Of a stretch of 64,000 nucleotides of DNA, positions 540 through 31,500 are shown in pieces. The DNA comes from Bactericera cockerelli (taxonomy: Eukaryota; Arthropoda; Insecta; Hemiptera; Triozidae): assembly GCA_024516035.1 (NCBI GenBank), contig CM044964.1:4027095-4091094 (forward strand), read 5' to 3'. The notes beneath the pieces were generated by a model that did no database searches, had not been told where the DNA came from, and worked only from the letters and a program-made list of their open reading frames with translations. The stretch's first letter is position 1; each line of letters begins with the position of its first letter. A program made the position numbers and the translations under genes.

Positions 540-2344
540 CTACTGTCATGAAGTACTGTGTCTTACCTTCCACAAAGTGTGCTATACTGCAGGACCGACT
601 GTTACTCTGTAGCGTACTGTTACTGTCATGAAGTACTGTGTCTTACCTTCCACAATACTGTTACTCTGTAGCGTACTGCTACTGTCATGAAGTACTGTGT
701 CTTATTCCACAATACTGTTACTCTGTAGCGTACTGCTACTGTCATGAAGTACTGTGTCTTACCTTCCACAATACTGTTACTCTGTAGCGTACTGTTACTG
801 TCATGAAGTACTGTGTCTTACCTTCCACAATACTGTTACTCTGTAGCGTACTGCTACTGTCATGAAGTACTGTGTCTTATTCCACAATACTGTTACTCTG
901 TAGCGTACTGCTACTGTCATGAAGTACTGTGTCTTACCTTCCACAATACTGTTACTCTGTAGCGTACTGCTACTGTCATGAAGTACTGTGTCTTATTCCA
1001 CAATACTGTTACTCTGTAGCGTACTGCTACTGTCATGAAGTACTGTGTCTTATTCCACAATACTGTTACTCTGTAGCGTACTGCTACTGTCATGAAGTAC
1101 TGTGTCTTACCTTCCACAATACTGTTACTCTGTAGCGTACTGCTACTGTCATGAAGTACTGTGTCTTATTCCACAATACTGTTACTCTGTAGCGTACTGC
1201 TACTGTCATGAAGTACTGTGTCTTATTCCACAATACTGTTACTCTGTAGCGTACTGCTACTGTCATGAAGTACTGTGTCTTACCTTCCACAATACTGTTA
1301 CTCTGCAGCGTACTGCTACTGTCATGAAGTACTGTGTCTTACCTTCCACAATACTGTTACTCTGTAGCGTACTGTTACTGTCATGAAGTACTGTGTCTTA
1401 TTCCACAATACTGTTACTCTGCAGCGTACTGCTACTGTCATGAAGTACTGTGTCTTACCTTCCACAATACTGTTACTCTGTAGCGTACTGCTACTGTCAT
1501 GAAGTACTGTGTCTTATTCCACAATACTGCTACTCTGTAGCGTACTGCTACTGTCATGAAGTACTGTGTCTTATTCCACAATACTGTTACTCTGTAGCGT
1601 ACTGCTACTGTCATGAAGTACTGTGTCTTACCTTCCACAATACTGTTACTCTGCAGCGTACTGCTACTGTCATGAAGTACTGTGTCTTACCTTCCACAAT
1701 ACTGTTACTCTGTAGCGTACTGCTACTGTCATGAAGTACTGTGTCTTATTCCACAATACTGTTACTCTGTAGCGTACTGCTACTGTCATGAAGTACTGTG
1801 TCTTATTCCACAATACTGTTACTCTGTAGCGTACTGCTACTGTCATGAAGTACTGTGTCTTATTCCACAATACTGTTACTCTGTAGCGTACTGCTACTGT
1901 CATGAAGTACTGTGTCTTACCTTCCACAATACTGTTACTCTGTAGCGTACTGCTACTGTCATGAAGTACTGTGTCTTACCTTCCACAATACTGTTACTCT
2001 GTAGCGTACTGTTACTGTCATGAAGTACTGTGTCTTATTCCACAATACTGTTACTCTGCAGCGTACTGCTACTGTCATGAAGTACTGTGTCTTACCTTCC
2101 ACAATACTGTTACTCTGTAGCGTACTGCTACTGTCATGAAGTACTGTGTCTTATTCCACAATACTGTTACTCTGTAGCGTACTGCTACTGTCATGAAGTA
2201 CTGTGTCTTACCTTCCACAATACTGTTACTCTGTAGCGTACTGCTACTGTCATGAAGTACTGTGTCTTATTCCACAATACTGTTACTCTGTAGCGTACTG
2301 CTACTGTCATGAAGTACTGTGTCTTACCTTCCACAATACTGTTA
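540..2344 (-). repeat. 57/59-bp tandem array derived from DGK exon 15 plus its splice donor (block 1)
   Basis: About 30 units. On the minus strand each reads CTTCATGACAGTAGCAGTAC, then GCTACAGAGTAACAGTATTG, TGGAAGGTAAGACACAGTA. This matches the end of exon 15 ([11 protein letters not shown]...VEG) and its donor, with two internal pieces deleted. The 59-bp units keep GGTAAG; 57-bp units lack the GG, which removes the donor. The two types alternate in multi-unit blocks (for example 59+57+57 = 173 bp). ORFs of 66-94 aa on both strands are by-products of the 57-bp period. Confidence 0.92.
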
Positions 2345-3665
2345 CTCGTACGACTGCTATCTGAAGTACTGGTCTTATTCCACAATACTGTTACTCTGTA
2401 GCGTACTGCTACTGTCATGAAGTACGTGTCTTATTCCACAATACTGTCTCTGTACGTACTGCTACTGCATGAAGTACTGTGTCTTACTTCACAATACTGT
2501 ACTCGAGCGTACTGCACGTATGATACTGTTTCCCCCTACTACCGGCGTACGTATGTTAGTACTGGTCTATTCCACAATACTGTTACTCAGCGACGTAGTC
2601 ATAAGTACTGGTCTTATCCCAATACTTTACTCTGGCGTATCTACCAGATAGTGTCTTATCCAATATGTACTCTTAAACTGTACTGTCATGAAGTACTGGT
2701 TTCCACATATGTACCGTACGTACTGCTACGCATGAGTATTGTCTACTTCCATAGTACTAGCTCGCACGTCATGAAGTATGTCTTATTCCAACGTACTGCG
2801 TACGCATATGAGTAGTCTATTCCACATACTTACTGTAGCGTAGCACTGCAAAGACTGTTATCAAACTTTCTCTCCATATACTTCTTATTCCTGACGTGAT
2901 CTATTCTGATCTTATTCCAAAGTATTTCGTATACTGTCATGAAGTACTGGTCTATCCCAAAGTACTCTCGTCTGTACTGTCAGAACGTCTTATTCACAAC
3001 TGTTACCTTGCGTACGCTAGTCAGAACTGTCTATACAATGTCTCGACACTCTGTCGAAGTACTGTCTATCCCAACTGTTACTCTACGTACTGCTACGTCA
3101 TAGTACTTCTTTCCACAAACTGTATCTGTATACTCAGTCTGATATGTGTCTTATCCACATACTGTTACTCTTAGCGTATGTCTGCATAAACGTGTCTCTC
3201 ACAATGTTACTGAGCTATGTACGTCAGAATCTGTTCTTTCACAATACGTCTCTGACGTATCACGTCATGAGTACTGTTATTCCAATACTTACTTGTACTA
3301 CTGCTCGATGAACTGTCTTATTCACAATACGTACCGTACCTACTGTCAGAAGTACTGTGTCTTATTCACAATGTACGACGTACGCTACTGTCAGAATACT
3401 GTGTCTATCCAACTGTTACTCAGACGCTCTGCAGTACTGTGTCTTTCACAATACGTCTCTGACGTACGTACGCAGAATACGTCTTACAACGTTACCGGGA
3501 CTGCCGTCAAGTACGTGCTACACAACTATTAGTACTGCAGTCATAGTACGTGTCTATTCACATACTTATCTGTAGCGTACTCTACGCAAGTACTGTTTAT
3601 TCAATTAGTCTGCTATGCATAGTACTTTCTATCCAATCTTACACGTACTGCACTCTGAAGTTCTT
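2345..3665 (-). repeat. Same 57/59-bp array with dense single-base deletions, probable sequencing error
   Basis: Unit landmarks (ccacaatactgttactc, gtactgctac, gaagtactg) continue, but with single-base losses every few bases and irregular unit lengths. Units on both sides are nearly identical. Deletion-dominated noise with sharp edges is expected from unpolished long reads, not from decay. The apparent ORFs of 60-132 aa here should be ignored. Confidence 0.8.
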
Positions 3666-4730
3666 ATTCCCAATACTGTTACTCTGTAGCGTACTGCTAC
3701 TGTCATGAAGTACTGTGTCTTACCTTCCACAATACTGTTACTCTGTAGCGTACTGCTACTGTCATGAAGTACTGTGTCTTACCTTCCACAATACTGTTAC
3801 TCTGTAGCGTACTGCTACTGTCATGAAGTACTGTGTCTTACCTTCCACAATACTGTTACTCTGTAGCGTACTGCTACTGTCATGAAGTACTGTGTCTTAC
3901 TTCCACAATACTGTTACTCTGTAGCGTACTGCTACTGTCATGAAGTACTGTGTCTTACTTCCACAATACTGTTACTCTGTAGCGTACTGCTACTGTCATG
4001 AAGTACTGTGTCTTATTCCACAATACTGTTACTCTGTAGCGTACTGCTACTGTCATGAAGTACTGTGTCTTACCTTCCACAATACGTGTTACTCTGTAGC
4101 GTACTGCTACTGTCATGAAGTACTGTGTCTTACCTTCCCACAATACTGTTACTCTGTAGCGTACTGCTACTGTCATGAAGTACTGTGTCTTACCTTCCAC
4201 AATACTGTTACTCTGTAGCGTACTGCTACTGTCATGAAGTACTGTGTCTTATTCCACAATACTGTTACTCTGTAGCGTACTGCTACTGTCATGAAGTACT
4301 GTGTCTTACCTTCCACAATACTGTTACTCTGTAGCGTACTGCTACTGTCATGAAGTACTGTGTCTTATTCCACAATACTGTTACTCTGTAGCGTACTGCT
4401 ACTGTCATGAAGTACTGTGTCTTACCTTCCACAATTACTGTTACTCTGTAGCGTACTGCTACTGTCATGAAGTACTGTGTCTTATTCCACAATACTGTTA
4501 CTCTGTAGCGTACTGCTACTGTCATGAAGTACTGTGTCTTACCTTCCACAATACTGTTACTCTGTAGCGTACTGCTACTGTCATGAAGTACTGTGTCTTA
4601 CCTTCCACAATACTGTTACTCTGTAGCGTACTGCTACTGTCATGAAGTACTGTGTCTTACCTTCCACAATACTGTTACTCTGTAGCGTACTGCTACTGTC
4701 ATGAAGTACTGTGTCTTACCTTCCACAAAG
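3666..4730 (-). repeat. 57/59-bp tandem array derived from DGK exon 15 (block 2)
   Basis: About 18 clean units of the same array resume at 3666. A few carry one-base changes in the homopolymer after cttacc. The block ends at 4730, where the longer, less deleted version of the exon 15 copy follows. Confidence 0.92.
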
Positions 4731-4782
4731 TGGGCTATACTACAGGACCGGCTGTTACTCTGCAGCGTACTGCTACTGTATT

Positions 4783-5010
4783 CCGGCCCTACCCAGGCTG
4801 GGTAAGGTTAATGTGGGTAGCTGGTACGATTCCCAGCGAATGGAGGGTAAAACCCCCGTCCTGTCTACCTCAAGTCAGGACGTTAAAACCAAATAGAATC
4901 AATGGACATGAAAGGAGCCTAGACATTAAAATCTGGGCGTCCATATAATCCTCTCACCACCGTGACTTAGGTATCAATACCTAACTCACGGACACGGAAT
5001 TATTATTATT
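4783..5010 (+). repeat. SINE family E, 5'-truncated copy
   Basis: attccggccctacccaggct, gtgggtagctggtacgattc and ggagggtaaaacccccgtcc are followed by the long tail gaaaggagcctagacattaa, ccgtgacttaggtatcaata and (ATT)n. Confidence 0.8.
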
Positions 5011-5023
5011 ATTATTATACTGC

Positions 5024-5365
5024 TACTGTCATGAAGTACTGTGTCTTACCTTCCACAAAGTGCGCTATACTGCAGGACCGGCTGTTACTCTGTAGCGTAC
5101 TGCTACTGTCATGAAGTACTGTGTCTTACCTTCCACAAAGTGCGCTATACTACAGGACCGGCTGTTACTTTGCAGCGTACTGCTACTGTCATGAAGTATA
5201 AGTATAAGTAGTGCTTTATTTAGACTGTCAGCGCAAGACAGGTAGTCCCATTATGCCCACAGTTTAACAAAGCACCTCTTTATTTATTTGAGTATAGTCT
5301 TACCTTCCACAAAGTGTGCTATACTACAGGACCGGCTGTTACTCTGTAGCGTACTGCTACTGTCG
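5024..5365 (-). repeat. Less-deleted copies of the DGK exon 15 end with donors
   Basis: Three copies (about 5024-5120, 5100-5200 and 5300-5365) retain the segment missing from the array units. On the minus strand they read CAGCCGGTCCTGCAGTATAG and CGCACTTTGTGGAAGGTAAG, coding [16 protein letters not shown] in the exon 15 frame. Similar single copies lie at 246-285, 544-605 and 4725-4780. They are probable intermediates between the exon and the array. Confidence 0.85.
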
Positions 5366-5424
5366 TGCAGAAAGTAAACTTTGTCTTGTTTAGACTGCTC
5401 AAATAGAGGGACTTTTTGTCTTGT

Positions 5425-5789: not shown

Positions 5790-6019
5790 CTTCCACAAAG
5801 TGCGCTATACTGCAGGACCGGCTGTTACTCTGCAGCGTACTGCTACTGTCGTGCAGAAAGTTCAGTTCTCGCTTGAAATCGTCGTCGGAAATGTCTTCGG
5901 GTGAGGTGGAGATCAGGTTGGACGCGTCGTACTCTATGTCCGGGTTGTCTAGCTCGGGGTAGGAGACTGTGGTCTCGCGTGAGGCGACGCGAGGAGAGAC
6001 GAGCGTGTGGTCCGAGTGT
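5790..6019 (-). CDS. DGKH: DGK exon 15: last exon in the window
   Basis: It encodes [20 protein letters not shown], then an acidic stretch ([20 protein letters not shown]), and ends [23 protein letters not shown]. The acceptor is ctgtctcgcag|ACA and the donor GTGGAAG|gtaata (phase 1). The linker normally leads into the accessory catalytic domain; the next exon is not in the window. The last 70 or so bases with the donor were copied repeatedly downstream and are the source of the large 57/59-bp array at 0.54-4.7 kb. Confidence 0.87.
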
Positions 6020-9000
6020 CTGCGAGACAGAATAGTGGAACAGTAAGATCCTTTTGTAAATGAAATACTAGGAAAAAAAGGCTCTGTCATACAGGCGCGG
6101 CCAATGCTAAGGAGCTGCGGAACTGCAGCACCCCCAGACACAAAAGAAAGAGATACGATTTTCTCAAGTCTTAGCTCGTACATCGTACACCCTCGCCCAT
6201 CAGAGGGGAGGCATACTACGGGATGGGCAGGTTACAGTACAGACAACAAGCGTCTACAGTAGCTCCTGTTTCATGCTACGAAAAAAAAGGCTGTGAAACA
6301 CTCATCTTAAAAAAAAAAAAAAAAAACACACATGAAAATTATCACACAGTTCTAGAACAATTATTATAACTGACACGGTAAACAAACTCAAATTTGTTAG
6401 TTACTAAGAGTCCAGTTTATGTGGCAGCACCCCCAAAAAAATTTCCCACCGGCCGCGACTGCTGTCATATATTATTTTTTTTTTAATTTCGGTTAAACGT
6501 CGCTTTCAACAGCATGGTCTTATCATGACGGGGGTATTACTTACCATTCACAGGAAATTCACAAACCTGCTACTTACATTACCTTTAGCCAGCTTGGGTT
6601 GGGCCGGAATGCCAGCATCACGAAGTCTTCGCCTCGCTGAACGTTGCTTAACTTCGGTGATCCTACGAGAACCGGTGCATTCAACAAGCCATGAACTCTG
6701 CTTTGTCATATTTAACGCAAAAAAATGTAATCCAGAGAAAAAATCGCCCAAGTTATTGTGTGTACGAAAATGAGAATCTCACCTCCTCATAATAGCATCC
6801 TCAGTGGAAGGCCTCATCTCCTCTATCGTCAGAAGACTGGCCTTCCTGTTGCTATCATGCTTGAGCCGAATCACCGACCCTTCGGGACTCACATCGGATG
6901 TTTCCGACGAGTCAATGTGCCCCATCTCCGACACTGTTTCGGCCGACATTTTCAGCCCGCTGAGGATTCCGTCCACCAGATCGTGCTGCGCGTCGCTTCT
7001 CGCGTCGAATTGGTCCGTTGTGAACGCGGCTTTTTGAAACGACGTCGTCTGGTCACTTGTAAACGGTGCTCTTTGGTCGTTCGAAACCGAGACTTGCTGG
7101 TCATTTTCGACCGACTCCTTTTGGTCATTTTCAAGTTGGTCCTGCCGGTGCAAAGCGTTTCGATCGCCTGGTGTCGAGGTTTGTTCGGTTATTGCTTGGC
7201 CATTGTCACTGCTGGTTTGGTCGAAGTTTTGGTCGGGTGTGGTAAGATTTGTACTGACGTATCTATTGCTGACAAAGGGTTGGTTGGAATTGCTTCGGGT
7301 GGGGGCGTCTGCATTGCTTTGGGTGTCGGTGGAGTCCGCGATACCTGAGAAAAGAAACAAACATGTGAATCAAATTCTGAGGTGTACGGCAATTTTTTTT
7401 TTTTTTTCGTATTCATAGTCATTTATTTTTGCTCGCTATCTTTTGCTTTCGCTCACAAATGGTTGCTCCATGTTTAAGTTAGAGCAGCTATTAATGAGAG
7501 GAAAAGGTCAGCTTCATGAATATTCAAGTACCATTTACTTCCAAAGAAGGAGAAGCAATTATTGCTTTGCTTTATGAATAATAATAATAATATCGCCTTA
7601 CTTATACAGCTTATACTGCCCAGTTAGGACTATTAACACGTTCGTTACCGAACGGCCATATGTGGATGTTTTTGTGTTTTTCCGAGGGACCGAAAACACA
7701 CATGTGGCTGTTATCAAAATTTTAACGAGGGACCGGACATCCATATATGGCCTTTTGGAGGTAGGTTGTTAGTAGGTATTAGAACAGATATAGGATCGAT
7801 TCTTGTACAAATACGATGCCAAATATGCAAAAAAAAACCTGGGGACCAAATTTTGGTCCCCAGGATGCAACAGCAACTTTACCGCCTGGTCCCTACGTAA
7901 AACTTGAAAAAATTGGCTTGGTAACGAACGTGTTAAAGTCTCATTATTCCAGCAGTAAGCCCAAGACATATTATTATATGGTAACATTCCCAATTAGGAG
8001 GATAACTTGTCATGTCCCGGCTGGGTTTCGAACCCACAAACTCTGGAATCTCTGGATTCATTGAGTGCCGCCTTTACCACTGAGCTACCGGGACAGACTT
8101 TGTCCGGTATGAAAGGGAAAAGCTTTTGCTTTTATCATACTACGTATTACTAGAAATTACATATCATATTACTAGAAAAGAGAGGGAAAATCGAAGAAAC
8201 ACAATGTAATACAACATTTTTTATTAACATTGTTACCTTAAGTAGTTGCCAAAGGATATTTCCTTAGCTTCTGCGAATGGGGTTGAACCCCGTAAATTCG
8301 TAAAAAAAAAATAAAAAAAAAACTACGACCCATTGATCCTGCTACTTACCGAGTCTACTCGAAGGCTCTTGGTTCGTATCGTGTTTGGTCTTCGACAGAG
8401 TTCGGCAATCCTCGTGACTAGCTCGCAAACATCTCGCCGCGTATTGCTTGGATAGTTCCGAGGGGGAGTGATATGTAAAGTGCGTGCCTCCCGAGAGTGA
8501 CAACTCCAGAGATGACGTGATATGTTCCCTGGGGAGAGGAGAAGACACGGTTTTAGATCCGAAATGAGTTTTTTTTTTTTTTTTTTTTTTTTTTACGCAA
8601 ACTTACGGGGTTAAGCCCATTTTTGTTACAAAAAAAGTTCGACAGAGTTCGGCAATTCTCGGTAACTTCTGTACCCATATTGCTTGGAAATGCTTTGATA
8701 GTGCAGTGTGGGAGTAATATGTAAATTGCGTGCCTCCCGAGAGGTTACCTGATAAGTACCCTAGGGAGAGGGGCATGATTATAACTCGTAAAGTACCTTG
8801 GATTGTTCGTCGAAGTGATTAAGGCGCTGGTCTGGTAATCCAACTAGAGCAGGGATAATTATGTTTGTTCGAATCTCAGTCAATGCAAACATTTTTTGAC
8901 ATTTTCATGTCTTTGCTCTGGCACATAACCAAAATTATGTGACGAAATTATGTAACGAAATTGTGTAACGAAATTATGTAACGAAATTATGTAACGAAAT

Positions 9001-12000
9001 TATGTAACGAAATATTGAATTGTAAAGGGAGAGAAGAGGGAAAGTGTGTGTCATGCGCACAATGGCGAAGTATTGAATTGTAGAGGGAGAGAAGAGAGAA
9101 GGTATGTGTCATGCGCACAATACGAAATTTGGTCAGTTGGATTTTGGACCTTGAATAGTAAAGATGAAAATGTCCCAATGGTTGCAGACTCGTATGCAAG
9201 CGTTTTTTTAAACAAAAATTTAAGATTGCTTTCAACTGCATGGTCATATCAGTAGTCACCGTGGCAGAGTGAGTTAGCGCGCTAGGCATTATACGCATGG
9301 TGACCTGGGTTCGATTCCCAGCGGGGCAGGAATTTTTTTTTTTCAATTCCATCTGAGACTTTGACTACACAAAGTAGCAACGAAACAACTGTTCATTACT
9401 CGAGACTATTTGGTCCGATCCAGCAGTAGACTTAAGTGTCCATTAATTGGTCTGGCAATCTAGGTAGAGTAAGTGTGCGTTGGTTTGAATCCCAACCAAT
9501 ACATGCGTCTTTCCTCATTCATTTGAGACATGGATACATAATTATTATAACGGCACCAAAACAACTACTGCAGTAAAGGCAACTCTTCAGTCGTCGTTAT
9601 TATTCAACAATTTAGATCAATTTTTTTATAATCTTTATTTACAATTTTTTTATAAAAAGGTGCAGTCAAAAGGTATAAATAATTAAAGATAAACAAAGTT
9701 TGATCAAGGCTTTTGGCATTCTCTGTTGTTGTTGTTGTTGTAGCTAGCTTGGCTACAGCGGGAGGGGGAAATGATGGTCTTCAGCCAATTTTATCTCAAA
9801 GTGGACTTGGACCATCATGAGGACTTGGACTTTTCTTTACAAGACATTAAACCCATTCGAAACTGCAAGCTAGCCTGGCTTGTAAGGGTTGGCTAGTCTG
9901 TTCTCTGATTCATGTACAATTGTACATCTAGTACAACTTCTCACTTTTCTGTTTATACTGATGTACCCCAGCAGATGAACTCTTCAGTCCTAACCAGGCC
10001 GTATAAAATTAAATTAATTATTATTCAATATTTTTTAAGGGCGGAAATAATAGACAACATCAGTAACTTAAGTCGTTGGTAAGTGTCGGTTTTCCCTATC
10101 TTGCACAGTACGCAATCCGTGACTTACCGCCACAGAGGTTTTACAAAAACGTCTATATTTACTCATACATTATTTAAAATGATAAAATCAGTGTTGACCT
10201 TTAATACATGTTCACATTAAATAATTCTACTAGAACCAGAGGCCATTCTAAAAAATTATTTAAAGAAAGAAATAAAAAAATAATTCATTAACTGATACCA
10301 TGATTAATGCTCCATCCACAAACACATTCAAAGCTAAAATTGATGATTTTTTCTCTATTAAATAGTGCATCAATTGTAGGTATAACATAACCTCATACTT
10401 TTGTTCTGGGCTTAATAGTTTTACTTATAAAACTTTGCCCTTATAAGATTTTCTATTATTATTATTAATATTATTAATTCCGCCCTAAGTCTTTATTAAA
10501 ATAACGCCACTCACTCTTGGGCCGCTTGGTCGGCGAACTCGGAGGGCGCCGGCAGCCGCACCCCCGCCAGATGGGCGAGCTCTGAGTCTCGCCGGCCCTG
10601 GTCAGGCAGGGGCGAGATGAGGCATGGCCGCAGCAGAGTCTCGTCCGCGTAGAGGCCGGGCGAGTGCACCTGGAGCGAGCCCGAGGGGGTCATTGACCTG
10701 GCTGATGGGGTCATTGACCTAGCTGCGGGACTGACTGAGCCGGTCATTGACCCGGCGGCGCCACTCAGAGGGCTGGCGGAGCCTGGTGGGGTTAGGGGGC
10801 TTGTGGAGCCGGCGCTGCGCGGGGGTCCCAGGACAAAGTCGGGGGGGTTCGAACAGGGGGGACTACGAGAGTAGGGGGGCCCGGGGGGGTTAGGACAGGG
10901 GGGACTGCGGGAGGAGGGGGGCTCGGGGGTGGAGTGCTCCATGAGGTGGCGGACAGCTTTCTTGAGACTGTTGGCGCGTCCCAGGAGGAGGTCCTTCTTG
11001 ATCTGGAAGAGAGAAGATGCATTGGTAATGAAGTGATGTACATGCGTATCAGAACTTACCTGGACAGCTGTTTTGAGCTTCTTTGCTCTCATCAGCAGGT
11101 AATAGTTCTGAATACGCCAGCCTCCGTGGCGTAACGGTTGTGACTACTGCCCGTAGTCCAGAGATCCTGAGTTCGATTTCCGGTTGGAGCAGACTTTTCG
11201 CAACAGAAATTTCTGTTCCCTCCGAACATGTGAGGCTGGCAATTCCGGCCCTACCCAGGCGCGGTGAGGTTAATTTGGGTAGCTGGTACGATTCCCACCG
11301 AATGGAGGGTAAAACCCCCGTCCTGTCTACCTCTGCCTTGTATTTGTATTCTTATTACTTGCCCCTCAATAGAATGATGAGAGCCGCCAACTCTTGACAT
11401 GCAAGATATTTTTTGTAATTTTTTGTAATTTTGTAATTTTGACTTTATTTATTTTTTCAGGTTTGTACAATTTTTCCTTAATGCTAATATAATAATAGAC
11501 AATTATATTTAGTCATAATAATCAATTGAACAAAAAAATGTATGGGTATGGTAATTTATAACATCAAAAGTCTATTCTATTCTCACTAAGATCTTCCATA
11601 AGGAAGATCTTGTATTGAGAATAGAACTAGGTTTCATACATACTATATCTTTTTCTTTCTCTCTCTCTCTCTCTCTTTCATTATCTTCTGTTTGTATTCT
11701 TTCTTTTGTGTATTTTAGCTTTCTGCTCATTTATTTTGACTTATTTTTATTTTTCACTCTTTTTCTCTCATTCACTTCTATATGCATTCTTAATTGTATT
11801 CATTTTATTTTTTTTATTCTTTTTTTTTGCCTTCGTATGATTTTTTTTTTTTTTTTTTTCCTCTCATCTTTACACACATCTTCCTCTATTTTTAGTACCC
11901 ATATATTGTTTTTTTTATTATGATTTATAATTTCAGTAGATATTCTTTAACTTTTGTTTTAAATATTTTAGAATCAGGCACATCCCACAGCTCTTTGGGT

Positions 12001-13267: not shown

Positions 13268-16200
13268 ATATTTTTTAAAACAAAATTCTGAGTGTTTCAC
13301 AGCCTTTTGTATTTTCTTAGCCATGAAACAGGAGCTACTGTATACGCTTGTGGTCTGTGTTGTAGCCTGCCCATCCCGTAATATCCCCTCCCCTCTGATG
13401 GGCGAGAAGTGACACATTACTTCCCATTTAAGTGCTGGGTCAACACGAGCGCACCGGAAGGTAACTCTTACAAACAACTTATTTTTTTGTTTAACTGTAA
13501 CGAAAAAAAAATTATCCTCTCCCCTCTGATGGGCGAGAAGTGACACAGTACTTCCCATTTAGTTGCTGGCACTCTCTCTATCTCCAGACTATTAGAAGAA
13601 GCCTATATTAATTTAAATAACATACATTACCGACCTCAGTAGCTTGAACGATAAGACGATGAACTTGTTTGATGGCAGAGATTGCCTCAGGCAATAATCA
13701 CGCCCTTTGTCAATATTATTCTTGTCAATAAAGAGTTATTATTATTATTATTATTAACCTGGAGGTCTACGGTTCAAGTCCCGGTTTCAGCGTGGATTTA
13801 GTAAAGCGAGTTTCAGTAGTTGTGATATCACGAAAGTGATTAACACAAATATGATAACTAACTAACCTAACTTACCTTCCTCTCCCCTCCTCCTCTCCTC
13901 CACATCCTCATCGCTAGGCTCACTTTGAACCGTCTGAAGAAGCCTATCCAGCTTACTCTTGAGCAGGTGGCAGCGGTCCACAAACTGCGGGTCACTCTCG
14001 TCCCGGCCCGTCTCCGCGCATGCCTTGCGGGACAGAGCCTTGATCACGTCGCACAGAGCTCTGTGGGAAACATTTATTAGACATGTTAATTGCCCCAGAG
14101 CCTTGATCACGTCACACAGAGCTCTGTGGGAAACATTTATTAGACATGTTAATTGCCCCAGAGCCTTGATCACGTCACACAGAGCTCTGTGGGAAAACAT
14201 TTATTAGATATGTTAATTGCCCCAGAGCCTTGATCACGTCACACAGAGCTCTGTGGGAAACATTTATTAGATATGTTAATTGCCCAAAGCTCTGTGGGAA
14301 AGATTTATTAGATATGTTAATTGCCCAAAGCTCTGTGAAAAAGATTTATTAGATATGTTAATTGCCCCAGAGCCTTGATCACGTCACACAGAGCTCTGTG
14401 GGAAAGATTTATTAGACATGTTAATTGCCCCAGAGCTTTGATCACGTCACACAGAGCTCTGTGGGAAAGATTTATTAGACATGTTAATTGCCCCAGAGCC
14501 TTGATCACGTCACACAGAGCTCTGTGGGAAAGATTAATACTTCTTTATTTAACAAAACTCAAATTTTACAAATAAAAAATCTCTTCCATTGCCTCAGTGG
14601 AAGGTAAAGAGCCTAATACACTCGCACTGTTTCCTCGCTGAATGGCTAAGGATAACCTTTCAACCAGGAAACAAGGCGAGCGTGGCTCTTTACTATTTTT
14701 TTTCAAAAGCTAATTTGCCCAAAGCTCTCTGGGAAATATTTATTAAATATTTTTACCATACAGAGCTCTGTGGGAAAGATTTATTAGATATTTTTAACAC
14801 ACAGAGCTCTGTGGGAAAGATTTATTAGATATGTTAATTGCCCAAAGCTCTGTGGGAATTTTTTTAGTGGTATGTTCTGTCCCGGTAGCTCAGTGGTCAA
14901 GGCGGCACTCTGTGAATCCAGAGATTCCAGAGGTCGTGGGTTCGAAACCCAGCCGGGACATGACAAGTTATCATCCCATTTGGGATTTTTACCACATAAT
15001 AATACGTCTTGGACTTACTGCTGGAATAATGGGACATAATAATAGTCCTAATCGGGCAGTATAAATAAGGCGATATTATTATTATGTTCGTGAGAAAGAT
15101 TATTATTATTATGTTCGTGAGAAAGTAATTTGCCCAAAGCTCTCTGGGAAATATGTATTAAATATTTTTACCATACAGAGCTCTGTGGGAAAGATTTATT
15201 AAATATTTTTACCATACAGAGCTCTGTGGGAAAGATTTATAAAATATTTTTACCATACAGAGCTCTGTGGGAAAGATTTATTAAATATTTTTACCATACA
15301 GAGAGAAGATTATTTTTTTTATTGTACAGAGCTTTTATTGTACAATCCATTCAATATGTTTCTCACGCAGATAAAAATGATAATGATAAAAAAATAATGT
15401 TACAGCCATTATTATTAAGTTTCAACAATTTTGAAGGATCTGTTTGGCTGTTAACATTGAACAGGCAGACAAACGAAAAGCAAATGGCACCATTGGATCA
15501 GCAGAGATTCAACACCGTCTGTATTTAAAATTTCGTAACGATAACGATAAAATTTGCTGACTCACTTGGCAGTCTCTACAATCTCTTCCTCTTCATCACT
15601 GACCAATATTTCGTCAGATGGTTGATCACTCGGTCCTCATAAGTCAGGAAAATACTCCATGACAGACAGTATAGTTTTAGGAAATTTCGTAACAATAAGG
15701 ATAATATTTGCTGACTCACTTGGCAGTCTCTACAATCTCTTCCTCTTCATCACTGACCAATATCTTCGTCAGATGCTTGATCACTCGGTCCTCATAAGTC
15801 AGGAAAATACTCCATGACAGACAGTATAGTTTTAGGAAATTTCGTAACAATAACGATAACATTTGCTGACTCACTTGGCAGTCTCTACAATCTCCTCTTT
15901 ATCGTCGCTGACCAATATCTTGGTCAGATGGTTGGTCACCCTGTCTTCGTAAGTCAGCAGGGAGTCGCCTCCGTCCTGAGCGGGACCGCCCCCCGTGCTG
16001 CTGTTAGTGTTCAGGGTGATCTTGCTTCCGTCAGCCGTGCTGATGCTACGCTCGAAAGTCATGATGCTCCACCTGGGAGAAGCAGAGATTAATAAGTTAT
16101 GCAATAATTATTGTGAAATGTACCTAAAATTAAATCAAACCATATTAAAAAAGCAGGAGTTATCTACTTATAATAATTCCGTGTCCGTGAGATAGTGACA

Positions 16201-19200
16201 GATGCCTAAATCACGGTGGTGAGAGGATTATATGGACGCCCAGATCTAATTTCTAGGCTCCTTTCATGTCCATTGATTCTATTTGGTTTTGACGTCTTGA
16301 ATCCAGGTAGACAGGCCAGGGGTTTTACCTTTCATTCGCTGGGAATCGTACCACCTACTCACATTAACCTCGCCCAGCCTGGGTAGGACCGGAATTGCCA
16401 GCCTCAAATTTTCGGAGGGAACAGAATTTTCTGTGCGAAAAGTCTGCTCCAACCGGGAATCGAACTCAGGACCTCTGGACTACGGGCAGTAGTCACAACC
16501 GTTACGCCACGCAGGCTGGCTAGCAGAGATTGAACACTCAGCACCACTTGTCTTATTGCTTAGACAAATTTCTAATGTTAGAAATCGGAAGTATTGTGTT
16601 CGTTTTTTATTATTTTTTTATTTTTACTGTCTATTACCTATAAGGAATAAAAAGTACTATAAACAGAGACTAGCTTGCCAAGGGTTGAATGGTTTATAAA
16701 GAAAAAGCAGTTCTCACGATGGTTCATCGCACATAGAAATATGTGGTTCAGAACGAACCAACTTTTCTTTTGAGTTTGGCTGGAGACCATCATTCCCACA
16801 GCTGTAGCCAAGATGGCTACAACAACAAAGGTTCCTACGATTAATTTATTTATTTAGAAACTCTTTATTAGTAGAACATATATACAGACACATAATGGTA
16901 AAAATTAAATATAAAAATTGACAATATTAATAATATAAACAAGAAAAAAAATAAACAAAATATACACAATATACAATTATACATAATATATGTCCTAACT
17001 AAAGGGCGGGGTTCTTGCCTATGGCAATCTCTTCCACCCAACCCTTAAAAAATAATGAAAAAAAAAACAATTAAAGCGCTGTGCTGTGCTTCGCTCACCT
17101 GTCCAAGATTTTGGTGCTCGCCTTCTCGTACTTCTCCAGGAGCTGAGGAAGATGTGTGTCGTCGTCACAGGAAGCTCCCCAGCCCAGCACGCGGGCCAAA
17201 TCATTGCCGGTGCCCAGCGGCAGGACTCCTATCTGACATTGCTTCTGGAAAGTGAGGCATGGCTTGTTAGTTCAGCATTACTATTATTGATAACATAGTA
17301 GTCACTGTGGCAGAGCGAGTTAGCGCGCTAGGCATTGCACACATGGTGACCTGGGTTCGATTCCCAGCGGGGGAGGATTTTTTTCTGCTCTGTACTTGGA
17401 TGTTCGGGGTCCACTCATACCTCGTGAGGAAAAATGAGTAGCTGCTTTAATGTGAAGCAGCGACCAGTGGCAGAATCTTAGGCAAAAAAAATAATACAAG
17501 ATATTGTAAATTAAAGCGGTAAAGTCCTATGATTCTGCGCTACCCACTAAAATTGTGACATAATAACACAAAGAAAAAGCATTAATTAATTAATTAATTA
17601 ATTATTATTGATAACATACTATAAACAGGGAGTAGACCAGCATTGGCTTGGTTCTGGGGGCCCTAGTCAATTATTAGCCTCCTTGTAAAGACAGTGGTAG
17701 ATGTTTCCTCCACTGTCTGGCTACCATCGTTTACGATGACGCCACTCTAAGATGACTCAGATATAATATTTTATTATTATTCCAGCATACAGCTCAAGAC
17801 GTATTATTATGAAGTCAAAATTCCATATGGGAGGATAACTTGTTATCTTCCGGCTTGGGTTTCGAACGCACGACCTCTGGATTACCTGACAGACACCTTG
17901 ACCACTGATTTACCAGGACTGACATATACCACATCTACATACCAGTCTCTCATACGAATGAACCAATTAAAACAAAATGAGTGTTTCACAGCCTTTTTTT
18001 TCGTAGCCATCAGACAGCAGCTTCTTTAGACACTTGTGGTCTGTGTTGTAGTCTGCCCATCCCGTAGTATGCCTCCCCTCTGATGGGCGAGAAGTGGCAC
18101 AATACTTTCCATTTAGTTGCTGGGTCAACACCAGCGTACTAGCCCTTACAAACAAATGTGACGTACGAGACAAGCTTAGAATAACTGGATAATGCTCCGA
18201 GAATACTTAAATGAATTGCGAATGAACCATACTCCATCTGAATCTATTAACCCAGTTAGAATTTTACATTTAATATTTTATAAAATATTAAATATAAAAT
18301 TTATAAAATATTAAATATAAAATTTAATATTTTGGCAGAGAAACTAGAATTTTAGAATTTTTAGAATTTATAATTTATTGTTTGTTCGACATTTACAGAA
18401 ATGTATAAAACATGGTCACCATAAATTATATACATGCATAATTGTATATGTTACATACATAATATATATACACATACATGTACTCGCTTATGTACGCACA
18501 CACACATACGTATACATATTTTGTATACGCATGCGTATACTCCGCTTTTAAGTAATCAACTAGGGCTACAGTGAAAAAGATTCGAGACGGATTGTCTCAG
18601 CTCACTGGCACTTCCAAAATCCAAGTGAGTTAAATTTAAAGAATCTTGGTCTTACATAAAATATTAATAAATAATAACCCAGTTAAAGACCATCACATTC
18701 CCCTCGGCATGGCTTCAGCTGCTACAAAAACAACAAAATAATGTTGTTTTTTGTTGCTACAACAACAACAACCAATTTTTTTGTCGGCTCTGGAGATCAA
18801 ACCCGGAACCCTACGCATACTTCACTTACTTTTTTTTAAGTAATCAATCTTTATATATATATATTTCCTTTTTTTTTAATTTCTATAAACATTCAAATAT
18901 CAACATTCCCGCCCCATCTTCACATTCAACACCCCGCACTTTCTTTCTCATCCCCCCCATTATTATTGATACAGCTCTGATTATCACTTACTTGCATGTT
19001 GAGTCTGTCAATCTCCGACAGAACCCACCCAACAGAGCCATCTCCGCTGCACACGAGAATACGAAATGGATCGAAGTGACGAAACAGTCTCAGTCTGGAA
19101 GAAAAATATAAGGAAATGAAACCCTGTGAGTTCTGGAAGAAAAATATAAAAAAATGAAACCCAGCTGGCGAGATCTTCCCGGGTACAGATTTCTCTTCTC

Positions 19201-22200
19201 TCTTTCTCTTCCCTTTTTTCTCTTTTCTTTTTCTCTTTCTCTTTCTCTTCTCTTTTTCTCTTCTCTTTTTCTCTTTCTCTTCACTTCCTTTTCTCTTCAC
19301 TTTCTTTTCCCTTTCACTTTCTTTTCTCTTTCACTTTCTTTTCTCTTTCACTTCCTTTTCTCTTCACTTTCTTTTCTCTTTCACTTTCTTTTTTCTTTCA
19401 CTTTCTTTTCTCTTTCTCTTTCACTTTCTTTTCTCTTTCACTTTCTTTTCTCTTCACTTTCTTTTCCCTTTCACTTTCTTTTCTCTTTCACTTTCTTTTC
19501 TCTTTCACTTTCTTTTCTCTTTCACTTTCTTTTCTCTTTCACTTTCTTGTCTCTTTCACTTTCTTTTCTCTTTTACTTTCTTTTCTCTTTCACTTTCTTT
19601 TCTCTTTTACTTTCTTTTCTCTTTCACTTACTTTTCTCTTTCTCTTCTCTCATACTCTCCTCTTTCCTCTCTCCTCTCTCTCTCCTCTCCACTCCTCTCT
19701 CCTCTCTCTCCTCTCCCCCTCTCCTACTCACCCGAGACCAGGCCCGTTCCCGATGAGGTCAAACACCTGGGCGGGGTTCAGCAGCTGTTTGAACCGCCGC
19801 AGAAACTTGACGCCCTGGTTGTCGCCCGACTTGGAGTTGACGAACACGAGCAGGGGCGAGCAGGCCGGGGGGCGGACGCCCTCCCAGGCCTCGTCGCCGC
19901 CCACCGAGTGGAGACAGGTGGGCGGCACCGTGCTCAGACGACAGGGGCCCAGGCTGCAGCATACCTGGGGGCGGGGGGGGAGATAGTTGTTGGTGTTAGA
20001 GATGAAAATATCGGATTTCATTTTTTTTTTTTCTTCAAAAATTTTGACATGAATTTGTAATTTTCAAGTCCATTATATTGAACCCAATGTTACCTATCCT
20101 ATTGGGATTTTATCTATTATTTGACCATGTCAGATTTCTTTTTGTTATAATCATCAGTATATAATCAGTATCAACAGAAAAGTGAGAAGTTGTACTAGAT
20201 GTACTAGGTTTACTAAATCGACGCTGAATCCGGGACTTGAACCACCGGCCTCCAGGTTACGCGTACGCCGCCACCTTATCGATCAAGCTACTGAGGTCGG
20301 TGATCTCACTTCACTACTTATGATAACTCATCATAGGGTGGCGTCATCATGAACAATGGTAGCCAGACAGTGGAGAAATGACTCATCATTTCTACCACTG
20401 TCTTTACAAAGAGGCTAATAATTGACAAGGGCCCCCAGAACCAAGCCAATGCTGGTCTACTCCCTGGGAGAAGATTAGTGTCTGGGAGAAGATCAGTGTT
20501 TCGCTAGAGGACTATAAACAGAGAACAGACTAGCCAAACCTAACAAGCCAGGCTAGCTTACAGTTTCTTAAGGGTTCAATGGCTTATAAAGAAAAGTCCC
20601 AAGTCCTCACGATGGTTGATCGCACATAGAAATATGTGGTTCAGGACAAGCCAACTTTGAAATAAAGTTGGCTGAAGACCATCACTCACCCCTCCAGCTG
20701 TAGCCAAGTTGGCTACAACAACAACAACAACTCCCTGTTTATAGTCCCCCAGCCAGAGTATTACTATTTTTTTTTTTTTAGATTGTCTCTACCCATGGCT
20801 CTAGGGTATAGTATAGTATAGTAGTGCTTCATTTAGACTGTCGGCTCGAGACAGGAAGTCCCATTACTATTATTATTGTATATAATAATAGTAATGTATA
20901 GGAAGAGAATGCCAAAGGCATTATCACCACCCTTGATCAAACTTTGTTTATATTTAATTAATTATACCTTTTGACTGTACCAGTGTACCTGTATATAAAA
21001 AATTGTAAATAAAGATTGATCTAAATTGTTGAATAATTATTATTATTTTAACAGCATCTGCTTACCGTGTGGTCGGGGCGGCAGGCTGTGTGCACGGTAG
21101 CCTTGCACCAGAGACAGCGCCAGTCCTGCAGTCTCAGCACAGAGCCGCATGTTCTCCCACACACCGAGCACTTAGCCGCCACAGGGAGGTTGCCCTCCAT
21201 CCACTGGTGCGGCATGAGCAGGTTCTGTGGGGGCGAGACAGCGTGACACGGTGAACTTAAAGTATTATTATTAATAAATGTTTTATTAGATAAAAAGACA
21301 CATATGTATATATTATGTACAATACAAAAATTATTATAATAAAATAAATGGAAACAATATAAACAATAAAATGGAAAGAAATAGATAAATACAGGGTGCG
21401 CCAGAATAACCTGACGAGTTTAAAATGTTAACTATCAAGTCATAGCTTGTCGTAGATGGTTGATGTTAGTGTCATTTTGTTTCCAATAAAAGCGGATTTA
21501 GTTACAATGGAGTCGTGGACACATGCGCATCGTGCTTTTGTTGTAGAGACATTTTTTAAAAGTGGTGATTCTGTGGCAATTACTCAAAAAGTTTCGGACT
21601 CACTACCGAATTAAATCTATTTTCTTTGGGGTTAACTCAAAAGTAAAGTCTAGGTATAATGGTATATGCATAAGCCAAGGACTGTAGATGATTTGAAGAG
21701 ACTAATTGTTCAAGAAATTCGTGCAATACACCTGAATATGCTTGAGAAAGTCATGGACAATTTTTCGACCAGAATTGACGAGTGTATCAGAAAAATGGAG
21801 GTAAACATTTGACCAACATTATCTTTCACAAATAATTCAAATATTCAAAAAATCATGTATTAAAATAAATCCGCATCTCTTCTCTTTCAAATAACACAAA
21901 AAATATTGTTCTATCTTAAAATTACTTTATTTAGTATCATTTTTAAACTCGTCAGGTTATTCTGGCGCACCCTGTACAGTGTACAATCTGTACATACGTC
22001 CTAACTAAAGGGCGGCGTTATTGCCTATGGCAATAAAGTATTGCCAGATCTTTACTGTCCCAATACATAGACTTAGAATTATAGCGAAAGTGGGAGCAAA
22101 ATTATCAAAATCCATCGTCACAGTATCAAAATCCATCGTCACAGTAATCAAAATCCATCGTAACAGTAATCAAAACCCATCGTCACAGTATCAAAATCCA

Positions 22201-25200
22201 TCGTCCACGGTATCAAAATCCATCGTCAACGTATCAAAATCCATCCCCTACATTTTTTTTATTCCAAGAAAATATTGTTCTCTAAGTTTTCTTGAACCAA
22301 TTCGAACAAACGGCCCATGCGGCAAACTTTTTGCGGCCCTGTACGGTTGATTTCAACCAAAAAATCGTGGTTTGTCTGCTTTATAAAATCAACTTTCGCA
22401 CCTAATTTCAAGTCTCTAGCTCTAACCGTTCTTGACGGACGCATGAAAACGACAACTTTTGTGGTTAAAAATGTAGCCTAATTTTTTAAATTGAAAAACA
22501 AGCAGTCATTTACAAAACAAAACATTAGCCAGCGTCGCGTCGATGGCGCGTTGAATGCACCGGTTCTCGTAGGATCACCGAAGTTAAGCAACGTCCAGCG
22601 AGTGAGGACGTCGTGATGCTGACATTGCGGCCCAACCCAGGCTGGGTGAGGTCAATGTGGGTAGCAGGTTTGTATGTTTCCTGCGAATGGAGGGTAACAC
22701 CCCCGTCGTGTATGACCATGCAGTTGAAAACGACGTTAAACTGTAATAAAACAAACAAAAACCAAACATTGAACTAATAATTTTATTCAACAATAAGAAG
22801 AACAAGAAAACAAAGGCTAATAACCCCTTTCCTTTTTTTTCTGGAGGACAAAACAAGTGTTAAACACAAAAGAACTCATGTTCGTCTGAATATTAATAAG
22901 GATTCTGGGAGCCTGAAATAGAACTTCAGACGGAAAACTCTTGATGAGCCAACGAGTGTTGGGAGATGTAATTACAAAAGTTCAGGCCTACTATGAGAGA
23001 GAAAAGAGAGAGGAAAAAGGGAGAGTGAAGGCGTGTGAGGGAGAGAGGTGGGAGTAAGAGAGAGGGAAAGTAAGAGAGCGTGGGAGGTATAGATAAAAAA
23101 AGGGAATGTAGGAGAGGCAGAAGAGAGGAAAATCAAAAAAAGTTAAAGGAAGAAAAGAGCAGTGGCGGCTCGTCGGGTGAAGACACTGAAGACATTTTCA
23201 CCTAATTTTGAACAGTGAAAACACTACTCATAATCCCTTGAACATGGCACAATAGATCCAACTCAAAGAAAAAAAAAAAAGAGTAAGCTTTGTGTAAAAT
23301 AGATCAATGCTGCTTAACATGCTCATGTTACTTTCCAAGGAGAACACCAAATGTGAAGACAATTCGAAATTGTCTTCAGTTGTCCTTGAATCAACCAATC
23401 AGAGTTGAGTATTTCCAAGTAGGTATCATGAAATATTAGGCAAGAACTATATCTATGTAATATGCTACTGAGGACAGTCTTCAGTTGTATTCAGTTTACA
23501 TTATCTACACGACCTCATACGAAATGTCACGAAGCCACATACCATGTGCGATGTCATGTGTTTTTGATATTAACATTGTTGCCAGTAGCATTATGCCAGA
23601 CCTAGGAAACCAGTCAATGATTTAGCCTCCCATATCTAGCACAATCTTGTAATATTTAAAAAATAATAATAATAATAATAATAACGTAGGCGTTAGGAAA
23701 GCAGGATTTTGTGTCAGGAATTTTGGATATTATTTCTCATTTTTTGGGTTCTAGTTTTGTACATAGTTCCTAAACGATAGCCGATACCAATAAATTTTAA
23801 CTATTTATGTATCTTGTCAACTATAGTCTTAAAAAGGACATCTCGATTGAAGTCAAATCTCGGAAATAATTATTTAATGTAGGTACCGAAATTGAGCCAA
23901 ATAAGATAATCTGGTATCTAGTAGTTCCAAGAAGTTTTTAAATAGGGACAATGGTGGTTCTGTTTAAGATCCTGACTATGGAACCACTTTTAAAAAAATC
24001 ATGAAAATAGACGTGTTGAAATGAAATTCTCCAAGAGAAAATTCTGTTCAGGCGGTGTAGTATTATCTTTTTAAATAAATAAATTTAATACGTCTTACAT
24101 GATTTGAGGGATTTCTTTAAATTTAAAATATAGCTCTTGAAGTTTGTAGAAATTTAGCTATGAAATTAACTTGGCAACATTGTATCTCTTATCTTTAGAA
24201 TGTAAACAAAACTTGTTGCGCACTTTTTAAATTTTATTAGATTATTTTCAAATCTTTTCAACGGTAATCAAGTGACTTTTAATTGGTGTAACTAGTTAAT
24301 AAAGTTATTTCCCAGTATTTGATACAGGATAGAAACATTATTCCTACCTGATCTGACCTGTGCTTTTCATAATAAGTTGAATATGAAGTAGCTATGTACT
24401 TCTTTCAGTGTCAGAAATAACATTATAATTATGCAGGTTGCAGGTAGCTAAGCACACAGCTTCCAGTGAAGTGCTTAAAATTATAAGGCAATATCTGTGT
24501 TTTTCATAAATAGTCATTTAAACATCAATGGTAACACAAATTTAAGCTGATTTTATATTTGTAGTAAGTATGTTTTCTTAGATATATTTTGTAATCTGGT
24601 GGTGGATTTTCTTCCAGTTTTGGATTGTAATTTTTAGTCTTCAACTAACTTTTTTTCCTTCCCAGTTCTAACCCTTAATGTTGTACCTACCTATCTACTG
24701 AGGTATAATCCTAATATTTTTATTTTAATTCCTTTTTACCAACTTTTAGTTAATATTTTTTATTAAGATGAATAAATATTTTTTATTAAGATGAATATTT
24801 CAAAGAAACAATGAGATTCCCACAAAATCATGGGGTTCAAACATTAAAAGTAACCCCATTCAGATTAAGAAGTAATGAGGATAAGAAAGATAATATGATT
24901 ACTGGATGTCCAATTTCTCCAATTACTATAACCACCACTAAAAAAGTAAAGCAAATGCCTGCCCCACAGCCATACAGTTCAAGCCTGAATGGCTTATGAA
25001 AAATGAATGGCTGTGTACCAACTCAAGTGTTGACAAATTGTTCTGCTGGCCTTGTTTATTTTTTTAAGTACCAAGTGTTCTCCAAAAAAAGTACCTATAA
25101 AAACTTATATGATGCAAAACTAGTATGAGAGAAAATCATGCTCTGCAGGGAAACAGCCATAACTTACAATGGGCTGTGTTTATGAGACCATAAGAACTAA

Positions 25201-28378: not shown

Positions 28379-28409
<31 letters not shown>

Positions 28410-28427
28410 GAGAGGAAAGAGAGAGAG

Positions 28428-28458
<31 letters not shown>

Positions 28459-28466
28459 GAGAGAAG

Positions 28467-28506
<40 letters not shown>

Positions 28507-31500
28507 GGAGGGAGAGAGAGAGGAAGAAAGAGAGAGAGAGAGAAAGGGGGTGTTGTAAAAAGGGCAAATGAAAGAAAAATAATTGTAATGACAAAGCATG
28601 AAATGATGGAAATGATAGGGCAGCGTTTCTTTGTAAGACTGGCGAAGAAAAATTATTTGCGATCTAATTAGTTTTTAATGAACTTTTTTCTTGCGATTAA
28701 ACAAAAAGAAATGTTAAATATAAGATATCAGAATCATAAGATATCGGAATTATTTTTGTTAATTAAAAAAGAGGCAGACCGCCAAGATGATGCATAGTAA
28801 TAATAGATAAAAATGTTTATTATGCATTAAATTTGTCCTCCATGATATCCTTGCCCATGGATTCCAGGGTACTTCAAACCTCATGATCCACAGTTATACT
28901 TATGGCTTTCAGGATACTATCTACAATTGTCTTCCCATACACATCTATATAATTATGGTTTTGGACATGAAGAAATAGGTAATGGAGACGTCCTAACGTA
29001 TTTCTCATGGGTAATAAATCTGTCCCACAATAAACTATACAGTATGGCTACCGTTATTACCCTCAAAAGCATGTAAGAAGAAATAATTTATTTTTTAAAG
29101 TGATTTTCTCGGTGTTAAATCTAACAACCATGGTCGATTTTACGGGACAGGTTTGAGGAATTACGAGTTCTCCGTTTATTTTTTATCTATGATTCGGAAG
29201 ACTTACCCCATCTTTGTCCTCTATGCTATGATATCTTTGCCTATGGAAGCCAGAGGTGCTAAAGCGACTCTTATTGATGCCTTTTAAGCTTTCAGGATAT
29301 CTGCAATTGTCAATTCACTACCTACATCAAGTGCTTCTAGTATTTCTACATGGTTCTGGAGAGACTTACACCATCTTTGTCCTCTATGATGTCCTTGTCT
29401 ATGTAAACCAGTCTTCTTCCCACTACCTACATCAAGTGCTTCTAGTATTTCTACATGGTTCTGGAGAGACTTACCCCATCTTTGTCCTCTATGATGTCCT
29501 TGCCTATGTAAGCCAGTCTTCTTCCCACTACCTACATCAAGTGCTTCTAGTATTTCTACATGGTTCTGGAGACTTACCCCATTTTTGTCCTCTATGATAT
29601 CCTTGCCTATGTAAGCCAGTCTTCTTCAATTGTAGTTTTTGAAGGTTTTCAGGATATCTGCAATTGTGTTTCCACTACCTACATCAAGTGCTTCTAGTAT
29701 TTCTACATGATTCTGGAGACTACCCCATCTTTGTCCTCTATGATGTCCTTGACTTACCCCATCTTTGACCTCTATGATGTCCTTGACTTACCCCATCTTT
29801 GTCCTCTATGATGTCCTTGACTTACCCCATCTTTGTCCTCTATGATGTCCTTGACTTACCCCATCTTTGTCCTCTATGATGTCCTTGACTTACCCCATCT
29901 TTGTCCTCTATGATGACCTTGACTTACCCCATCTTTGTCCTCTATGATGACCTTGACTTACCCCATCTTTGTCCTCTACGATGTCCTTGACTTACCCCAT
30001 CTTTGTCCCCTATGATGTCCTTGACTTACCCCATCTTTGACCTCTATGATGACCTTGACTTACCCCATCTTTGTCCTCTATGATGTCCTTGACTTACCCC
30101 ATCTTTGTCCTCTATGATGACCTTGACTTACCCCATCTTTGTCCTCTATGATGTCCTTGACTTACCCCATCTTTGTCCTCTATGATGACCTTGACTTACC
30201 TCATCTTTGTCCTCTATGATGACCTTGACTTACCCCATCTTTGTCCTCTATGATGTCCTTGACTTACCCCATCTTTGTCCTCTATGATGACCTTGACTTA
30301 CCCCATCTTTGTCCTCTATGATGACCTTGACTTACCCCATCTTTGTCCTCTATGATGTCCTTGACTTACACCATCTGTGTCCTCTATGATGTCCTTGACT
30401 TACTCCGTCTTTGTCCTCTATGATGTCCTTGACTTACGCCATCTTTGTCCTCCATGATGACCTTGACTTACCCCATCTTTGTCCTCTATGATATCCTTGA
30501 CTTACCCCCTCTTTGTCCTCTATGATGTCCTTGACTTACCCCATCTTTGTCCTCTATGATGTCCTTGACTTACCCCATCTTTGTCCTCTATGATGACCTT
30601 GACTTACCCCATCTTTGTCCTCTATGATGACCTTGACTTACCCCATCTTTGACCTCTATGATGTCCTTGACTTACCCCATCTTTGTCCTCTATGATGACC
30701 TTGACTTACCCCATCTTTGTCCTCTATGATGACCTTGACTTACCCCATCTTTGTCCTCTATGATGTCCTTGACTTACCCCATCTTTGTCCTCTATGATGA
30801 CCTTGACTTACCCCATCTTTGTCCTCTATGATGACCTTGACTTACCCCATCTTTGTCCTCTATGATGTCCTTGCCTATGGAGGCCAGGGTGCTCCACTTG
30901 CAGTTGTTGATGGCCTTGAGGACGCATCTCTTGTGCACTTTCAGCTTGCAGATCTCACAGCTCAGACCATGTGACGTCACACCTGAGAGAGGAAGGGGGG
31001 AGGGAGGCAAAACTTTACAATCACAAGAAATCAAGTTTACAATAACAAGAAAACAACTTTACAATAACAAGAAAACAAGTTTACAATAACAAGAAAACAA
31101 CTTTACAATCACAAGAATTCAACTTTACAATAACAAGAAATTATCTTTACAATAACAAGAAATCAACTTTACAATAACAAGAAAACAACACTATACCATA
31201 ACAAGACCACGTTTTTATCATTGTAGGCTTCCATTATAGACATCATTATGTAGAAAACCCCCAATCATCACACCGATCTCTATTGGATTCTATTTTCTTA
31301 TAAAGTCCAGATTTAAGATAGTCAGGACGGGGTTTTTACCCTCCATTCCCTGGAAATCGTACCAGCTACCGACATTAAACTCTTAATAACCTTCAAGCAG
31401 TGTACAACACTCTATATGTACTTGTACATCTGAATCTCACTTGAAGGACATCTAAAGGACATTCAATACAGCTAGAAAATAAATTCAAACAAATGAGAGC

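Follow-up and report, generated by a model that had tools for sequence, protein, structure and literature searches.

Why should several exon borders of a single gene each be accompanied by copies of the exon end together with its splice site? The question is raised by a diacylglycerol kinase (DGK) gene of Bactericera cockerelli, much of which occupies the minus strand in the first 46 kb of a 64-kb stretch (the window; C10:4027095-4091094 of the 565-Mb assembly GCA_024516035.1). An earlier interpretation of this DNA from its letters alone, here called the sequence-only reading, had suggested that splice junctions are hot spots for local duplication or that duplications with extra splice sites are unusually well tolerated. 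We find arrays whose units combine exon and splice site, protein joins that match those of insect relatives, and a founder-weighted enrichment of border duplication in independently picked loci, so that the suggestion extends beyond the DGK gene. Our favored explanation, to which we give a probability of about 0.6, is that local duplication is biased to segments that hold a junction, and that the intronic copies are tolerated since use of the exon-most site restores the mRNA.

Exon-border copies in the DGK gene

The gene is of the eta/delta kind. Its identification as a DGK is borne out by Pfam, which detects DAGK_cat and C1 (two stretches), and by the top protein among the matches listed, that of the leafhopper Macrosteles quadrilineatus, which aligns to 55% of the query at 64% identity. 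Twelve exons were modeled via homology, splice consensus, and reading frame. Each exon with 150 bp of flank was compared with the whole window and, separately, a 30-bp border window was compared at each of the 24 borders. The 30-bp test revealed further same-strand copies at four of the 24 borders, namely the donors of exon 3, exon 8 and E14 (the last coding exon found in the window) and the acceptor of exon 9. The remaining 20 borders have no further copy of their 30-bp windows in the whole 64 kb. At all four, the splice site is located inside the repeated unit, as the sequence-only reading had stated, and the copies are on the intron side. That reading had listed exons 3, 8, 9, 13, and 15. 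The first three stand, and its exon 15 is probably our E14; at the probable exon 13, the claim fails, as there is only a 24-bp in-frame repeat within the exon and no splice site.

Exon 3 (30846-30982; all exons and border copies given here are on the minus strand) encodes the second part of the first C1 domain and ends in the donor GGG/GTAAG at 30846/30845. It is supported by phases that join it to E2 and E4, by Pfam, and by the alignment of insect relatives. Repeat comparison and spacing define an array of about 34 copies at 29721-30873, each unit consisting of the exon 3 end plus the GTAAG donor; the 30-bp border window has 33 further copies at a constant spacing of 34 bp. Older, diverged copies of exon end and donor are found at 29189-29627 (three of 105 bp and one longer copy that ends at about 29200). 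Exon 8 (15875-16072, donor CCAA/GTGAG), placed like exon 9 and E14 by splice phase and relatives, has two further copies of a 155-bp unit at 15528-15874, comprising exon end, donor, and intron start.

At exon 9 (13876-14060, acceptor CCCACAG/AGCTCTG), there are seven further copies of the 30-bp window and 17 acceptor-like junctions including the real one. The adjoining units (14061-14538) are 63 bp long, with shortened 41-bp forms, and hold the acceptor plus about 28 bp of exon. More 41-bp derivatives at 14706-15303 are interrupted by a tRNA-like insertion (14879-14960; Rfam tRNA, 30.1 bits), which may serve as a date marker.

The E14 donor (exon at 5790-6019, GGAAG/GTAATA) has one further copy in the strict 30-bp test and several more when a changed intron side is allowed. 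The units are first about 80 bp and then 59/57 bp long. Longer copies of exon end plus donor are present at 4716-5397 (64-76 bp aligned), the 57/59-bp array derived from this border extends over 537-4728, and the farthest partial copy is at 213-284. The copies have GTAAG in place of the GTAAT of the used site. The 57-bp form has lost the GT, which is missing from 18 of the 41 recognized units of the array. Many units at about 2.4-3.6 kb differ by deletions only. Among the unit lengths given previously, 63 and 57/59 bp were recovered and the exon 8 unit measures 155 bp, whereas that of exon 3 is 34 bp, not 30 bp.

A further case, absent from the sequence-only reading and missed by the 30-bp test, was recognized by eye at the exon 6 acceptor, where the polypyrimidine tract and AG occur twice (19095-19163). 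Separately, a TC-rich array (19191-19723) starts about 10 bp into the intron after exon 5, adjoining the donor but not containing it.

Minisatellites, or variable number tandem repeats, are built of head-to-tail units of tens of bases that share variants and show higher-order periods. The border arrays share this head-to-tail arrangement and unit size; they differ in that their founder is preferentially an exon edge plus splice site. Whole-exon duplication does not describe them, as the window-wide matches of exons 3, 8, 9, and E14 include one splice site only.

If array families start at random places, the 23 families in the window are expected to hit 0.65 borders, compared to the four observed (P ~0.003). 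We think that a random-founder start is a better model of array origin than coverage because one founder segment yields many copies. However, the window was picked for its pattern and thus cannot by itself settle whether borders are enriched.

Protein joins and splice-site choice

With splicing at the exon-most site, the protein across the exon 3/4 and 8/9 joins aligns, by eye and without insertion, to that of Macrosteles, Nilaparvata, Periplaneta, and Schistocerca. The SIAHFVE-like end of E14 is found in three of the four insect relatives, and the next exon lies outside the window. In each of the 65 computed cases, splicing at an inner donor would introduce a stop or shift the frame (32 of 32 at exon 3, two of two at exon 8, and 31 of 31 at E14). 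Of the 16 inner exon 9 acceptors, 14 lead to a stop; the nearest two (14123 and 14186) are in frame, would add 21 or 42 residues, and are possible sources of length isoforms. The lengths of the border units show no frame preference, only six of 31 hand-listed units being divisible by three. Within the coding exons E12 and E13, there are also tandem repeats at 10686-10725, 10840-10929, and 7086-7132, whose unit lengths (21, 42, and 24 bp) are each divisible by three.

Border duplication in independently picked loci

We assembled 77 exon loci picked by protein family and not by repeats. The first 57 comprise seven DGK-family loci besides the studied gene (nine matches listed), 30 myosin-head loci (the best 30 of 77), and 20 kinesin loci (from a list of 85); 12 kinesin and eight myosin loci drawn from these lists form a second set. 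Both the 20 kinesin loci and the second set were hand-picked from the listings before their sequence was seen, omitting the longest single-exon kinesin matches. Flanks were 450 bp for the kinesin loci and the second set and 1500 bp for the others. Borders were called by a fixed rule, except in one DGK-family locus (L003) where the rule failed and they were called by hand, and 13 of 154 were dropped for weak scores, leaving 141. A border was counted as duplicated if a same-strand match within the locus of at least 24 bp and at least 78% identity covered 8 bp on each side of it. The background was taken from non-coding positions of the same loci, weighting each repeated position by 1/copy number and excluding the repeats of duplicated borders.

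By these measures, 21 of 141 borders (14.9%) are duplicated against a founder-weighted background of 2.97%, a 5.0-fold excess (binomial P 1.5e-9). Keeping border-derived repeats in the background raises it to 4.88% and lowers the excess to 3.05-fold (P 5.5e-6). We resampled gene clusters because borders within one gene are not independent; a bootstrap over the 37 clusters gives a 95% interval of 3.1-7.9 (border-derived repeats excluded), and 15 of the 37 have at least one duplicated border. The cases are distributed over myosin (11/55), the DGK family (1/14), kinesin (3/37), and the second set (6/35), the last of which alone stands against a background of 2.3%. Restricted to copies of at least 90% identity, 19 of 141 borders are duplicated against 2.06% or 3.19% (border-derived repeats out or in). 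As the excess persists there, it is not just a matter of similarity lasting longer in constrained exon sequence. Donors are duplicated more often than acceptors (15/73 vs. 6/68, Fisher P 0.06).

The sample cases read by eye show an anatomy like that in the window, with copies on the intron side. For example, the seven copies in L097 recur every 70 bp and extend 45 bp into the exon, and in L050 a single exon is flanked by arrays on both sides; L051, L071, and L094 have single distant copies and not arrays. Two loci touch the donor and go uncounted under the automatic rule (L062, whose repeat includes less than about 8 nt of exon, and L074, where the array starts at the GT). The array in L043 stops short of the acceptor and is not among the 21. 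Neither is L066, where the match is between similar neighboring myosin exons and not a border duplication; L054, L055, and L066 (C11:3.7 Mb) hold a series of similar myosin exons that may be mutually exclusive alternatives.

Genome-wide counts of donor words

The genome-wide test of border enrichment called for by the sequence-only reading was thus carried out in part, through the 77 loci and through word counts that need no annotation. For the latter, we counted, on both strands, triplets of an 8-base word whose copies are separated by 14-44 bases. Triplets of AGGTAAGT match 3018 times compared to 214 for the reversed word, and triplets of AGGTGAGT 6203 times compared to 665; the shuffled control GATGAAGT matches 209 times and its reverse 855. 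Pairs of AGGTAAGT separated by 60-90 bases occur 3862 times, vs. 358 for the reversed word. The word test covers donors, and the acceptor pattern (three copies of TTTNCAGG) is outside these counts.

Among the matches listed, the first 5.2 Mb of contig 1 contain five separate AGGTGAGT arrays and three AGGTAAGT arrays, and GATGAAGT forms 16 arrays from contig 1 to the first 9.7 Mb of contig 5, about 235 Mb. After array masking, 193 kb of exon-rich sample contain AGGTAAGT 20 times vs. eight for its reverse, and AGGTGAGT six times vs. 12 for its reverse. Two motif-found arrays were read by eye. That at C1:2167714 starts at the donor of an apparent coding exon (acceptor, open frame, and donor), and that at C1:8217 starts at a possible short exon.

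Founders, coverage, and the age of copies

Several observations weigh against the explanation favored here. First, the 24 borders of the DGK gene, when rotated over today's repeats, meet them 5.7 times on average, compared to the four of 24 observed. By this yardstick there is no excess. With yardsticks that contradict each other in this way (0.65 expected vs. a rotation mean of 5.7), we do not rely on significance within the window. Second, raw coverage over the same 141 sampled borders gives a background of 7.9% with border-derived copies out (P 0.004), a weak excess, and of 15.7% with them in (P 0.64), no excess. The claim therefore rests on counting each array as one founder, because raw coverage shows little or no excess. 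Third, intron-only duplications in the first 57 loci are not commoner near the border (2.1% at 25-150 bp vs. 3.2% farther away). A wider hot zone around exons is therefore not supported, which narrows the mechanism without explaining it. Fourth, the word counts are of matches and not of arrays, a few big arrays dominate them, and the control words differ fourfold. Finally, we infer use of the exon-most site in vivo from DNA alone.

The sequence-only reading had also taken the mixture of identical and decayed copies as a sign of a repeated, ongoing process. We aligned the decayed stretch of the 57/59-bp array (2370-3660; 28 units) unit by unit. Sixteen units each lack 10-24 bases relative to the 59-bp form, 269 in total, with zero substitutions or insertions. 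Alignment is poor for eight others, which carry 7-23 substitutions apiece and could be either genuinely old or sequence of another kind; the remaining four are milder. Deletion-only differences are typical of uncorrected long reads. The deletion-only stretch is probably such sequence, and the decayed middle of this array is poor evidence of age because neutral decay should give substitutions throughout. Thus, we do not use it as a clock. The claim of a repeated process is better served by exon 3, whose copies are of clearly different ages, those near 29.2 kb being truly older, and by two paralogous myosin exons, L052 (C1:54.0 Mb) and L053 (C1:53.9 Mb). Matches in their flanks are 86-98% identical, and a 38-bp acceptor array of three units is present in the former and none in the latter, a contrast that suggests array turnover.

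Mechanism and alternatives

Under the explanation we favor, short local tandem duplications would arise along the genome, with junction-spanning segments duplicated or kept roughly three to five times more than other non-coding sequence. Whenever a border is duplicated, the original mRNA could still be obtained by splicing at a single one of the sites, the first among donors or the last among acceptors. The additional exon ends would be removed with the intron, so that any unit length could be tolerated; the array could then slip and expand, and the intron would grow. We infer that the extra enrichment reflects a bias in duplication initiation at exon-containing sequence and not selection for extra splice sites. 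The remaining candidates are a bias to exon sequence and a bias to the junction itself.

A stronger version, which we entertain tentatively, makes exon-intron junctions true mutational hot spots in this lineage. Some mechanism linked to transcription, to splicing, or to the chromatin of exons would create tandem duplications across the junction but not around it, a considerable fraction of introns would grow by repeated copying of their own exon edges, and spare splice sites would accumulate in large numbers.

Alternatively, exonic sequence rich in G+C could be a better minisatellite seed in an A+T-rich genome, with the border cases alone surviving. Exons are 54% G+C and non-coding sequence 36% in the first 57 loci, and the three in-frame repeats within E12 and E13 would also agree with such seeding. 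However, 46 intron-only arrays have a mean G+C content of 34% (median 38%), compared to 36% for non-coding sequence. As intron-only arrays are not G+C-rich, G+C content as such does not appear to be the driver, although another exon property could be, and we consider seeding by G+C unlikely.

It could also be that duplications start uniformly, that those in coding exons are purged, and that border-spanning ones survive like intron-only ones, with no hot spot involved. The intron-side position of copies at the borders read by eye, the unit lengths without frame preference, and the lack of a raw-coverage excess when border-derived copies are included are all as pure tolerance would have them. 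Yet founders should then be as frequent at borders as in introns, whereas 14.9% is observed against 3.0-4.9%. This excess is 5.5-fold for copies of at least 95% identity in the first 57 loci, so that longer-lasting similarity in the constrained exon copy offers no explanation. The three-to-fivefold founder excess suggests that tolerance alone is insufficient, and we regard it as quite unlikely to be the whole account.

Selection for the extra splice sites themselves seems improbable. Arrays might aid exon definition, or their U1-binding sites might shield a long intron from early polyadenylation, since such sites can protect long introns in this way. The leaning toward donors among duplicated borders and the GTAAG of the E14 copies would both fit, but the GT is lost in a large part of the 57/59-bp array (18/41 units) and acceptors are duplicated too. 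Lastly, an assembly artefact from mis-joined or miscounted reads is very improbable because the units differ among the 21 borders, which belong to 15 of the 37 gene clusters, and because clean units with shared variants occur elsewhere in the 57/59-bp array, even though the deletion-only units mean that array interiors are not fully reliable.

Relation to intron gain by tandem duplication

Tandem duplication is a well-described source of introns, and the cases in the excerpts available of four papers involve segments of exon, proto-splice sites, or single duplications from which an intron arose (PMC4974935, PMC3443670, PMC2891723, PMC2809761). The likeness to the systems in those excerpts is that a local duplication carries a splice signal and that the mRNA can stay unchanged (PMC4974935, PMC3443670). 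Unlike there, the DGK units straddle a border that already exists, their copies are contained in the established intron, and no gain of an intron is seen. A potato RdRp gene, as excerpted in PMC4974935, acquired a new intron from a duplicated upstream intron-exon structure; like the exon 9 unit, the duplicate holds polypyrimidine tract, acceptor, and exon, but there a single duplication made an intron, whereas the DGK gene has many copies and no new intron.

The sequence-only reading had offered the gene as a test case for intron gain through AGGT-containing duplications, and we reject this for the window. Rogers-type gain starts from an exonic segment, and all four DGK units span exon plus intron. 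AGGT occurs at the border of the exon at 5790-6019 only (GGAAGGTAA) and in none of the 30-bp windows of the exon 3, 8, and 9 borders, that is, in one of four units. The copies are within existing introns, and the matching exon 3/4 and 8/9 joins argue against a new intron between copies. We recognized no report of arrays concentrated at splice junctions genome-wide, which is weak evidence of absence given limited subscription coverage. Overall, the making of introns by tandem duplication is known, and the concentration of arrays at splice junctions is apparently new.

Other features of the gene and window

A guessed exon E11 (11121-11060) was dropped as its frame is broken. The E12-to-E13 join (10514-7345) is out of frame, so that the model may lack a small exon here or misplace the end of E12. 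The catalytic motif (18992-19094) is SGDG and not GGDG, likewise in the L003 gene and in all four insect relatives read; because these relatives share it, we consider it a lineage feature and not damage. Matches resembling 5S rRNA at 46838-46959 and 22533-22619 may be 5S-derived dispersed repeats, and a similar stretch was noticed by eye in L010.

Implications

For annotation, the arrays are a warning, as dozens of near-identical splice sites can stand beside real exons. More broadly, the origin of new splice sites, of alternative exon ends, and of intron length is an old question that has often been approached through single cases. With about one in seven sampled borders carrying a local duplication, the rate, breakpoints, and fate of such events, including any alternative exons or new introns, would become directly measurable in this genome.

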